From Amylibacter sp. (lineage in GTDB: Bacteria; Pseudomonadota; Alphaproteobacteria; Rhodobacterales; Rhodobacteraceae), in NCBI GenBank assembly GCA_027083485.1, contig JALWOO010000673.1:1-14514 (forward strand): a DNA stretch of 14,514 nucleotides. The letters run 5' to 3'. A program made the translations under genes and the position numbers. The notes below the pieces were generated by a model. That model had not been told where the DNA came from, did not search any database, and saw only the letters and a program-made list of their open reading frames with translations. Positions 9,647-11,974 of this stretch are shown here, one piece after another; within the stretch, counting starts at the first letter, position 1, and each line of letters begins with the position of its first letter.

Positions 9647-10479
9647 TCTGCCAATACCGTTTCGCGCAAATCGGCATCTACTTCCGGTTTTGTTCCGAAC
9701 CATTGCTGAAAGCCCGGTACCGCCTGATGCAACAACATGCCCAAGCCGTCCACAACCATTAGCCCGCGCTGTTCCGCCTGTAACAGCAGATCGGTTTTCA
9801 ACGGGCTATAGACAATATCCGTCACCAAAGACCCCGCCGCCGCCTTTTCGAGTGAAAACTCCAGTTTCGGCTGTCCAACCATTCCCAAAGATGTCGTGTT
9901 CACAATCGTTGCCGCATCTGCAATGATTTCCGGTGCTTCGTTCCAGTTGCAGACTTCGACCCGTCCGCCAAAATGCTCTTGCAATGTTTCAGCCCGCATG
10001 CGGGTACGGTTTGCCAGAATAACCTTTGGCGCGCCCTCACTCAGCAACGATGAAATCACCGCGCGCGCCGCACCGCCTGCCCCCAATACAACCGCAACAC
10101 CGGCTGACGGGTTCCACTCCGGCTGTTCCTGACGCAGGTTGTTAATGAAACCGATTCCGTCCGTGTTATCCGCATAAATTCCGCCATCCGCAGTAAAGGA
10201 AATCGTATTAGCCGCCCCGATCAGCGCCGCACGATCGCTTACAGAACTGGCCATGGCCAGAACGGTTTCTTTATAAGGGATTGTGACATTCACACCGACA
10301 AAACCGAGCTTGGGCATAGATCGCAAAGCGGTTTCAAATTCCTGCAAGCGAATGCCCACAGGAACATAATGCCCCTGAATACCGTATTTTTTTAACCAAT
10401 ACCCATGAATGCGAGGGGATTTACTGTGCGCAATCGGCCAGCCAACAACACCGGCAAGGGGGATTCGTTCAGGGGTCAT
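9643..10479 (-). CDS. aroE: Shikimate dehydrogenase
   Basis: Catalyses NADPH-dependent reduction of 3-dehydroshikimate to shikimate, the fourth step of chorismate and aromatic amino acid synthesis. 278 residues. Substrate-binding SKSPRIHGYW at 19-28, catalytic Lys70 in NVTIPYKE, Asn91 in GAANT, catalytic-dyad Asp107 in DNTDGIGF, the dinucleotide loop GAGGAARA at 133-140, and the NADP phosphate-binding ANRTR at 156-160, matching NADP rather than NAD preference. The C-terminal DGLGMLLHQAVPGFQQW closes the substrate site. ATGA overlaps exist at both ends: with maf at 10476-10479 and with coaE at 9643-9646, so translation of the operon is probably coupled throughout. Confidence 0.97.
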   Translation of the reverse strand: MTPERIPLAGVVGWPIAHSKSPRIHGYWLKKYGIQGHYVPVGIRLQEFETALRSMPKLGFVGVNVTIPYKETVLAMASSVSDRAALIGAANTISFTADGGIYADNTDGIGFINNLRQEQPEWNPSAGVAVVLGAGGAARAVISSLLSEGAPKVILANRTRMRAETLQEHFGGRVEVCNWNEAPEIIADAATIVNTTSLGMVGQPKLEFSLEKAAAGSLVTDIVYSPLKTDLLLQAEQRGLMVVDGLGMLLHQAVPGFQQWFGTKPEVDADLRETVLAE

Positions 10480-11075
10480 GTGGGCAATACTCCTCTGGTT
10501 CGTAAAAATCCGAGCACTTCGATCAAGGGCAAGCCAAGAATCGTGAAATAATCGCCCTGCACCTGTGAAAACAATTGTACACCCAGTGATTCCAATTTGT
10601 AACAGCCAACCGTGGTCAGAATATCATCCCCTATTTTCTGTACATACTCTGCCAGAAACGCATCTGAAAAATCACGCATAACCAGTTGCGCCCGCCCGAT
10701 ATGACGCCAAACCGGAGCGCCATCTTCAAAAATCACGACGGCAGATAGCAGTTGGTGGCCCTTGCCTCGCAGCTGTTGCAGTTGCTTCATCGCCTGCTCT
10801 TGCGTGTCGGGCTTGCTGTAAACCTGCCCTTCACAAACCAGAACCTGATCCGCTGAAATCACAATCTTGTCCGGATTTTTGATTGCCACACGACGGCCTT
10901 TATATTCTGCAAGCGTATCTGCAATATCGCGGGGTTTGGCATTCTCCTGTAATAATGCAGCCATGATGGACGGCTCGTCTACGGGGGATGTCTCGACGTT
11001 AATAGCAACTCCGGCACCAAGCAAAAGCTGTTGGCGAATTTCAGAGCCGGAGGCCAGGAGTACAGAAGTAGACAT
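10476..11075 (-). CDS. maf: Maf/YceF-family nucleotide pyrophosphatase
   Basis: 199-residue Maf-like protein. The family hydrolyses non-canonical or modified nucleoside triphosphates (house cleaning; dTTP/UTP, or m7GTP in the YceF branch) to the monophosphate. The N-terminal signature reads LASGSEIRQQLL (7-18) where many members have LASASPRRxELL; the second Arg-type position is kept (Arg14) but SPRR is not. The catalytic Asp76 in ISADQVLVCEG is present, as are LRGKGHQL (102-109), VGCYKLESLG (156-165) and GDYFTILGLPL (174-184). The divergent signature is one I associate with alphaproteobacterial Maf proteins, but I cannot assign the substrate branch. AAAGG six bases before ATG supports the start. 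It opens the maf-aroE-coaE-dnaQ operon and flanks the proposed origin. Confidence 0.93.
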   Translation of the reverse strand: MSTSVLLASGSEIRQQLLLGAGVAINVETSPVDEPSIMAALLQENAKPRDIADTLAEYKGRRVAIKNPDKIVISADQVLVCEGQVYSKPDTQEQAMKQLQQLRGKGHQLLSAVVIFEDGAPVWRHIGRAQLVMRDFSDAFLAEYVQKIGDDILTTVGCYKLESLGVQLFSQVQGDYFTILGLPLIEVLGFLRTRGVLPT

Positions 11076-11109
11076 TTTGCGCCTTTCTTTCCCAAATCAG
11101 CTTGGGGTT

Positions 11110-11137
11110 AACTGTAGAACAGTTTCTGAATAACTGT
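11110..11137. repeat. AACTGT inverted-repeat cluster beside maf
   Basis: AACTGT (11110-11115), AGA, ACAGTT (11119-11124) form a perfect 15-base inverted repeat, and a third copy AACTGT follows at 11132-11137, overlapping the reverse DnaA-type box. It lies 35 bases before the maf start on the minus strand, at the edge of the proposed origin. It could be an operator for the maf operon or an origin-regulator site; no protein is assigned. Confidence 0.5.
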
Positions 11138-11143
11138 GGAAAA
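11135..11143 (-). promoter_or_regulatory. DnaA box-like 9-mer, one mismatch (reverse)
   Basis: TGTGGAAAA, which reads TTTTCCACA on the minus strand, one mismatch from TTATCCACA. It is the only good box in the opposite orientation and lies on the maf side of the origin candidate. Confidence 0.5.
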
Positions 11144-11212
11144 CTATGGAGAAAAAATAAATTAACACCGGATGTTGACTAAAGACAGGGTTTTCCAGAA
11201 ACCGCACAAGAA

Positions 11213-11221
11213 TTATCCCCA
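11213..11221 (+). promoter_or_regulatory. DnaA box-like 9-mer, one mismatch
   Basis: TTATCCCCA, differing from TTATCCACA only at position 7. Part of the cluster in the origin candidate. Confidence 0.5.
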
Positions 11222-11241
11222 TAGGAATATCTGAAAAATAT

Positions 11242-11250
11242 TCATCCACA
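11242..11250 (+). promoter_or_regulatory. DnaA box-like 9-mer, one mismatch
   Basis: TCATCCACA, differing from TTATCCACA only at position 2. It keeps the CCACA core and lies 48 bases before the perfect box in the same orientation. Confidence 0.6.
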
Positions 11251-11289
11251 TACTGGGGAAAAGATATAATTATTGAAGTTATTCCCGTT

Positions 11290-11298
11290 TTATCCACA
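11290..11298 (+). promoter_or_regulatory. Perfect DnaA box
   Basis: TTATCCACA, the exact high-affinity DnaA box. It directly abuts the most AT-rich stretch of the window (11299-11345), the arrangement expected of a DnaA box next to a DNA unwinding element. Confidence 0.8.
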
Positions 11299-11345
11299 AG
11301 GTTATCTATATATATCATATTGAAATTATTCAATAATAATTGTTA
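11299..11345. other. Candidate DNA unwinding element
   Basis: AT-rich segment just after the perfect DnaA box, with alternating TATATATAT around 11306-11314 and a palindrome TATTGAA-atta-TTCAATA at 11318-11335. Only a few G/C pairs occur in it. The low stability and position next to the box suggest the site of initial strand opening; inference from composition only. Confidence 0.55.
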
Positions 11346-11378
11346 TCCCAGCGCATGTACTCTTTTTATTCCGTACCC

Positions 11379-11407
11379 CTGACAATTCCATTTTGGTGGA
11401 TGATAAT
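11379..11407 (+). promoter_or_regulatory. Candidate sigma70-type promoter for hemJ
   Basis: CTGACA (11379-11384, five of six to TTGACA), a 17-base spacer, and GATAAT (11402-11407, five of six to TATAAT). Predicted start of transcription is near 11414, about 108 bases before the hemJ ATG. A one-mismatch DnaA box (11409-11417) covers that predicted start, so DnaA binding could affect transcription out of the origin. Confidence 0.6.
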
Positions 11408-11408
11408 T

Positions 11409-11417
11409 TGATCCACA
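11409..11417 (+). promoter_or_regulatory. DnaA box-like 9-mer at predicted hemJ transcription start
   Basis: TGATCCACA, differing from TTATCCACA only at position 2. It begins one base after the -10 hexamer of the candidate hemJ promoter, and a GANTC methylation-type site (GATTC, 11418-11422) follows immediately. Confidence 0.55.
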
Positions 11418-11521
11418 GATTCCCTGATCCCTACATCAAATACTACTTTTTAAATTTCATTTATTTATATTGTATATTGAACGAGCTTGGCGCAAACCAA
11501 GCAAGGAACAGGGAACAGGCA

Positions 11522-11974
11522 ATGACAGATATATTCGCAAATCTTTATCCGTGGATGAAAACACTGCATATCATTTCGGTGATTTCATGGATGGCTGGCT
11601 TGCTGTATTTACCACGCTTGTTTGTGAACCATGTGCAATATGCGCCGGTTGGCAGTGAAACATCTGAAATATTCAAGGGCATGGAATATCGACTGCTGAG
11701 ATATATCATGAATCCGGCAATGATTTCGACTTGGCTGTTTGGTCTCGTTCTGGCTTTTACGCCGGGTGTCGTTGACTGGGAATCCGGTTACCCCTGGGTG
11801 AAACTTGCAATGATTAGCGGCATGACCGTGTTTCACATGTGGTTATCAAAACGGCGCAAGGATTTTGATGCAGACCGGAACAGCCTGTCATCCAAAGCCT
11901 ATCGCATCGCAAATGAAATTCCGACTTTGATGATGATCATCATTGTCATCATGATTGTTGTACGTCCCTTTTAA
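11522..11974 (+). CDS. hemJ: Protoporphyrinogen IX oxidase HemJ
   Basis: Integral membrane enzyme that oxidises protoporphyrinogen IX to protoporphyrin IX in heme (and bacteriochlorophyll) synthesis; common in alphaproteobacteria and cyanobacteria. Called as 150 residues with about four membrane segments (15-36, 62-84, 92-110, 132-148). The signature WMKTLHIISVISWMAGLLYL (11-30) continues into PRLFVNH and includes the essential His16; the conserved Lys94 is in YPWVKLAMISG. The ending IPTLMMIIIVIMIVVRPF is typical. The ATG at 11522 has GGGA seven bases upstream (11511-11514) and gives the normal family start; the open frame extends upstream to 11393 but that part is AT-rich origin DNA with no family similarity. 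First rightward gene after the origin candidate, followed by rho. Confidence 0.95.
   Translation: MTDIFANLYPWMKTLHIISVISWMAGLLYLPRLFVNHVQYAPVGSETSEIFKGMEYRLLRYIMNPAMISTWLFGLVLAFTPGVVDWESGYPWVKLAMISGMTVFHMWLSKRRKDFDADRNSLSSKAYRIANEIPTLMMIIIVIMIVVRPF

Follow-up and report, generated by a model that had tools for sequence, protein, structure and literature searches.

Does the intergenic gap between maf and hemJ in an Amylibacter genome serve as the chromosomal replication origin, as a sequence-only reading had proposed? The window analysed here is the whole of contig C673 (14,514 bp), which belongs to an assembly that totals 3.23 Mb over 854 contigs, with 93% completeness and 6% contamination. 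The proposal was upheld, in that the gap is very probably the chromosomal oriC of a Rhodobacteraceae species, ordinary in kind. This reading is supported by the gene neighbourhood, the DnaA boxes, conservation in the family, the nearness of parB in closed relatives, and the strand asymmetry seen in five relatives, the sister species among them.

The gap between maf and hemJ and its DnaA boxes

The gap, the proposed chromosomal oriC, spans 11076–11521 (446 bp, 65% AT). It is bounded on the left by maf (10476–11075, minus strand), whose Maf-family matches stay under the equivalog cut-offs (117.0 against 117.15 for the subfamily profile TIGR00172), and on the right by hemJ (11522–11974, plus strand), for which TIGR00701 scores above its cut-off. 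The gene order of the window begins with two ABC permease genes, radC, hslV, hslU, an Smr-domain gene, mltA and a Tim44-like gene, and continues with fxsA, secB, dnaQ, coaE, aroE, maf and the gap, followed by hemJ, rho and mnmE, which is cut by the contig end. Genes adjoining the gap point outward on both sides, and farther left fxsA, secB, hslVU, radC and the permeases point toward it. An Rfam scan of the window gave no match, nor did a comparison of the gap with a plasmid collection; with generic motifs, no parS 16-mer was found in the window within three mismatches and no IHF site in the gap within one mismatch.

Five DnaA boxes with at most one mismatch are present in the gap, one of them perfect and four on the plus strand, just as had been described from the sequence alone. 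These are TTTTCCACA at 11135–11143 on the minus strand and, on the plus strand, TTATCCCCA at 11213–11221, TCATCCACA at 11242–11250, the perfect box TTATCCACA at 11290–11298 and TGATCCACA at 11409–11417, the four imperfect ones having one mismatch each. In 5000 Markov simulations of the gap, the mean was 0.22 boxes and the maximum four. The whole window holds 11 such matches against 2.86 expected, a number that none of 200 shuffles reached, while no 446-bp stretch clear of the gap neighbourhood exceeded two boxes. The claim that the clustering far exceeds that of the coding parts of the window held. The same account had listed three weaker TTATYC 9-mers, a count that has to be corrected to five beside the counted boxes, four on the plus strand (11279, 11326, 11343 and 11366) and one on the minus strand (11125–11133). 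Altogether, the gap contains seven TTATYC hexamers against 1.2 expected, and seven was also the maximum in 5000 simulations.

A single segment of 80% AT had been reported as well; its AT-rich character stood, but two such stretches were found instead of one. The stretch at 11296–11345 (84% AT), probably the earlier candidate for opening, is not conserved in sequence, and the other, at 11436–11485 (82% AT), follows the 11409 box and overlaps the conserved module described below. The gap thus combines a cluster of boxes beyond chance with an AT-rich element beside the boxes, both of which are marks of an oriC. Throughout the own assembly, 24 perfect boxes were found, each on a separate contig, against eight matches to a reversed control pattern.

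Conservation of the gap and a 60-nt module

Searches with hemJ gave matches in 57 of 61 genomes of the family (strong in 49, with E below 1e-30, and weak in eight) and in 27 of 33 genomes of the genus; the loci kept were the best 30 matches from the family, the best 30 from the genus and 80 named-contig loci. Both maf and hemJ were present in 80 loci (a few genomes occur twice) and divergent in each, with a gap of 315–509 bp in 71 of the 80, of 1.2–1.3 kb in three and of more than 1.3 kb in six. Eleven genomes in which hemJ was absent, weakly matched or away from maf were picked in addition; in ten of these rho faces maf across 487–577 bp, and in G004 another gene adjoins maf. The gap set comprises 74 gaps of 300–1300 bp and the ten maf–rho gaps, that is 84 gaps of which 81 are unique, the window's included; it takes in neither the six gaps above 1.3 kb nor any locus that lacks maf. 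The unique gaps carry on average 2.98 boxes with at most one mismatch, compared with 0.14 in shuffles, and three of the 81 have none.

Box clusters of this density were also looked for in a sample of 2.0 Mb from five closed relatives (100 stretches of 20 kb, some overlapping), and at least four boxes within 450 bp occurred only in the maf–hemJ gaps of G003, G045 and G089. The gap holds six boxes in G055 (joined across a stretch border), four in G090 and three each in G080, G062 and G064. The sister species G090, whose hemJ is 92% identical to that of the window compared with 73–75% for G080, G062 and G064, retains the boxes at 11135, 11290 and 11409 in place and orientation, the first of them as a perfect box. 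Conservation in close relatives, which the earlier reading had named as a check, is accordingly borne out by the enrichment in the family and by three of the five boxes in the sister species, but not by those at 11213 and 11242, which are not retained there.

Alignment of nine gaps from the genus placed the strongest block on the hemJ side. This block, which is absent from the earlier account, corresponds in the window to a module at 11409–11468 (plus strand) composed of a DnaA box, a C-rich spacer, CCCTAC, a stretch of triplets and T/A-rich DNA; judged by the alignment, it is the best-conserved and most constrained part of the gap. The 11409 box stands at its head, and TAATCCACA or TGATCCACA is aligned at that place in eight of the nine genus gaps. 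A first regular expression for the module proved too strict (30 of 81 gaps; reverse 3; shuffle mean 0.45) and was replaced by a weight matrix of 60 positions, trained outside the genus of the window and also without G003, G045 and G055 (51 gaps, 50 kept, 37.8 bits). In the window, the top match of the matrix is 11409–11468 on the plus strand with 45.6 bits, the next unrelated place being at -3.9. The maf–hemJ gap ranks first in each of eight test relatives that had no part in the training (G080, G089, G003, G045, G055, G062, G064 and G090), judged over the stretches sampled from them, with 20 to 50 bits in the gap against 0.8 to 18.4 for the best place elsewhere. The module reaches at least 15 bits in 78 of the 81 unique gaps, training gaps included, whereas in the controls this score was reached on the reverse strand of one gap and in 7 of 1620 shuffled gaps; the three gaps under 15 bits are L018 (14.9), L025 (-0.4) and L214 (6.8).

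Counted to its start, the module stands 320 bp from maf (median of 74 gaps); its median distance before hemJ is 91 bp, and in nine of the ten maf–rho gaps it lies 308–339 bp from maf and 176–239 bp from rho. Since the distance to maf is about the same with or without hemJ, the module belongs to the gap and not to hemJ. In L006, L013 and L079, an ORF of 282–311 aa was seen between maf and the module, for which the DUF299 regulatory protein ppsR is a candidate. The own assembly has a single match to ATCCACAG-N8..16-CCTAC, at the module. Across the 33 genus genomes, this pattern gave 17 matches in 14 of them, nine lying in the maf–hemJ gap, compared with seven for the reversed control. Among the papers listed by a literature search, none was seen to describe the module or a Rhodobacteraceae oriC. 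The module with its odd triplets appears to be the newer part of this description, and its function is one that we infer. Moreover, the matrix offers a sequence model to try on fragmented genomes where skew fails.

Strand asymmetry, parB and the rival readings

Cumulative GC skew, another check that had been named beforehand, was followed in relatives within the stretches taken, as distance from the gap edge; whole-contig samples were added for G080 and G089 only. The minimum lies 51 bp from the gap in G090 (whose contig extends 47 kb on the maf side and only 3 kb on the rho side), 0.9 kb in G045, 1.6 kb in G003 and 16 kb in G089; in G055 the curve kinks at the gap and reaches its minimum at a distance of 21 kb. 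Sparse samples of the whole G089 contig had their lowest skew at 961 kb, not at the gap, with several sign changes. In G062 and G064, there is no minimum at the gap within about 100 kb, and none was reached in the stretches taken, while that of G080 lies about 239 kb away. The expected minimum was thus borne out at or near the gap in four relatives and as a kink in a fifth, but not in G080.

Strand asymmetry was measured on the coding strand at fourfold-degenerate sites, and each pair of values gives outward genes first and inward genes second. On the maf side, the asymmetry is outward in G090 (0.142/-0.066), G089 (0.161/-0.114), G003 (0.099/-0.079), G045 (-0.010/-0.191) and G055 (0.071/-0.002), gives no signal in G062 (0.004/-0.008) and G064 (0.012/0.019), and is reversed in G080 (-0.275/0.317). 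The window's own maf side gives no signal either (0.047/0.039, about 1000 sites each). On the rho side, the asymmetry is outward in all seven relatives with enough genes (G080, G089, G003, G045, G055, G062 and G064). In the own assembly parB lies on a separate contig, C459, where the asymmetry is also outward (0.138/-0.150) with the orientation taken from relatives. The distance from parB to the gap is 6.5–6.9 kb in all five closed relatives, a conserved neighbourhood with parB near being a further mark of an oriC. By comparison, dnaA lies 67–205 kb from the gap in the closed relatives (contig taken as circular where needed), and in four of the five it is no more than 700 bp from the contig start.

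G080, a closed genome of the same genus, is the contrary case. Its gap (L041) lies at 206,537–207,042 and keeps the module, but its skew minimum is at 3,420,763, which on a circular contig is about 239 kb away in the direction of maf. Strand asymmetry has a single sense across the gap, even when only the nearest 6.5 kb are considered, a pattern that a distant wrong join would not produce. The stretch around the minimum (C1, about 3,418,000–3,433,000; L258) holds two transposase genes with identical hmmscan scores and a ParB-like protein under the cut-offs. A KOPS-type pattern occurs 246 times forward and 193 times reverse in G080 in all; among the matches listed, from 15 kb to 1.326 Mb, all are on the plus strand, against what an origin at 207 kb would give. 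A plasmid initiator behind the shift was considered and rejected, as neither RepC nor RPA was found in G080. In the own assembly, contig C475 carries an RPA-type plasmid initiator, a weak ParB match and one perfect DnaA box, and is probably a plasmid contig. The gaps L037, L039 and L041 (of G064, G062 and G080, respectively) are without the expected maf-side asymmetry and also have only three boxes each. It is possible that the origin has moved, or that a second origin exists, in the sub-group of G080, G062 and G064, and G080 may serve as a test case in which the origin has perhaps moved while the old sequence stayed.

These observations bear on the reading in which the gap of the window is a relic or a secondary origin, that is, ancestral in nature with initiation moved in this sub-group. 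The three genomes of the same genus that keep the module without the asymmetry favour it; however, G090, which is nearer to the window by its hemJ, has both the outward asymmetry and the skew minimum at the gap, the window has five boxes instead of three, and the asymmetry of its own contig C459 agrees with an active origin, which leaves this reading improbable, though somewhat less so than the two that follow. One of these places the true origin near dnaA and gives the gap no role beyond DnaA titration. Box clusters can titrate DnaA, dnaA stands near the contig start in most closed relatives at the distances given above, and the skew minimum of G080, taking its contig as circular, is about 33 kb from dnaA and so closer to it than to the gap. 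Nevertheless, the first stretches of G003, G045 and G080, which contain dnaA, hold no cluster of four boxes, the own dnaA contig (3,994 bp) has a single box with at most one mismatch, and the local skew minima of G003 and G045 are at the gap and not at dnaA, all of which makes an origin near dnaA very improbable.

The conserved block might otherwise be a promoter or leader of hemJ, or of a hemJ–rho unit, regulated by the boxes. Its median position of 91 bp before hemJ would suit such a role, and DnaA is described as a regulator of genes in Caulobacter in PMC2877005. Against this, the module keeps its distance from maf in nine of the ten maf–rho gaps, where hemJ is missing from the site, the region has no more promoter-like matches than chance would give (3 against 2.8), and in six deeper loci the module precedes hemE. 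A regulatory role in place of an origin is accordingly hardly to be expected, and the gap is best read as the chromosomal oriC.

A possible opening mechanism and known origins

In this origin, DnaA would bind the boxes between 11135 and 11298 together with the box at 11409, from which it may load onto the adjoining triplet stretch, and the T/A-rich DNA at about 11431–11485 on the hemJ side would then open. The module at 11409–11468 is the putative opening site, a placement based on its conserved layout and on its likeness to unwinding systems made of a DnaA box and DnaA-trios, and it narrows the candidate to 60 nt. Two forks would then leave the gap, one to the left through maf-aroE-coaE-dnaQ and one to the right through hemJ-rho-mnmE in the direction of parB, as suggested by the strand asymmetry of the sister species and four other relatives and, in the own genome, by that of the rho side only, oriented after the relatives.

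Alphaproteobacteria are known for a hemE-type oriC layout. The gap is like it in having maf-aroE-coaE-dnaQ on one side and hemJ-rho-mnmE with parB on the other, but it is adjoined by hemJ (by rho in ten relatives) and not by hemE. Among the 80 named-contig loci, 61 have an arrangement other than maf-gap-hemJ, and in six of these (L083, L095, L100, L102, L114 and L122) a module of the same layout was found with at least 25 bits on the plus strand upstream of hemE, with L100 and L122 near-identical at the module. No minus-strand match of at least 25 bits occurred among the 61 loci, and the other 55 stayed below 25 bits, though many contain hemE. Weaker matches in AT-rich Pelagibacter-type loci were set aside, as the minus strand reaches 21 bits there. 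The matches before hemE would suggest one origin element across the class, from which hemE and other neighbours may have moved away in Rhodobacteraceae. A second order of hemE-hemJ-rho-mnmE-mnmG was seen on the own contig C381 (L035; 5,729 bp), with a hemJ 59% identical; in an assembly with 6% contamination, L035 is probably from a contaminant alphaproteobacterium.

For the CtrA site, taken as TTAA-N7-TTAAC, the gap gave none within one mismatch and only matches with two. With the origin Cori of Caulobacter crescentus, as described in PMC4468827 and PMC2877005, the gap shares boxes at 11242, 11290 and 11409 that fit the Caulobacter DnaA consensus [TC][TCG][AG]TCCACA, and TGATCCACA has the T-to-G change described there for G-boxes. 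However, the same sources give Cori five CtrA sites against none in the gap, which is not of the Cori type in this respect.

The layout of the module, in which a box and a C-rich spacer are followed by CTA, a stretch with a 3-nt rhythm and T/A-rich DNA, could be followed across gaps. In 78 modules, 48 of which come from training gaps, C stands at 0, 3, 6, 9, 12 and 15 from CTA with frequencies of 0.92, 0.90, 0.65, 0.55, 0.63 and 0.59, compared with at most 0.31 at other positions up to 15. Among 30 held-out gaps, 25 of them anchored, the values at 3, 6, 9, 12 and 15 are 0.96, 0.80, 0.16, 0.56 and 0.44, a rhythm that is strong at 3 and 6 and weaker beyond. The triplets after CTA are mostly CAA and CAT, without a middle adenine on the opposite strand. 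In the window, the run reads CTA-CAT-CAA-ATA-CTA-CTT-TTT, in which four triplets have T at the centre and thus an adenine in the middle on the opposite strand; these four begin 22 nt from the 11409 box. At the triplet position of L095 stands CTACTACTACTACC. Repeated CTA, the ordinary trio type, was seen in L095 (at 1753), L102 (at 823) and L121 (at 809), labelled Micavibrio, Rickettsiales and Alphaproteobacteria, respectively, where Rhodobacteraceae mostly have CAA or CAT.

The module may resemble the origin of Bacillus subtilis. It has a likeness to the basal unwinding system (BUS) in its box, its C-rich spacer, its first triplet CTA (3'-GAT-5' on the opposite strand), its 3-nt rhythm and the AT-rich DNA beyond; in the deeper loci L095 and L102, the likeness extends to CTA repeated at the triplet position. 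The difference is that most gaps continue beyond CTA with CAA or CAT, in which the middle adenine is lacking. The BUS rule, as given in PMC8287927, is at least three middle-adenine trios within 16 nt of a box. Anywhere in the gap, with boxes of up to two mismatches, such an arrangement was found at 11213, 11242, 11290 and 11302 on the plus strand and once on the minus strand, and a stricter form with four trios was found in 35 of 81 gaps forward, 21 reverse and 8.0 in shuffles; these matches carry little weight, as they come easily by chance in AT-rich DNA. At the conserved module itself, the four trios lie 22 nt from the box against the 16 of the published rule, and the module is for this reason not classed as a BUS. 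On our reading, it nevertheless resembles one and would work like one.

A tentative idea, which we consider possible but rather doubtful, is that Rhodobacteraceae origins open by a lineage-specific form of the BUS, in which the trios after the first would be 3'-GTW-5' (CAW on the box strand), with T for the middle adenine, derived from GAT trios still seen at the same place in some other alphaproteobacteria. The range from ordinary to altered triplets would provide a natural series with which to address the question of what base in a DnaA-trio is read. The BUS authors state in PMC8287927 that trios without the middle adenine may exist, and the altered trios of Rhodobacteraceae, if real, would supply a natural instance of the deviant type suspected there.
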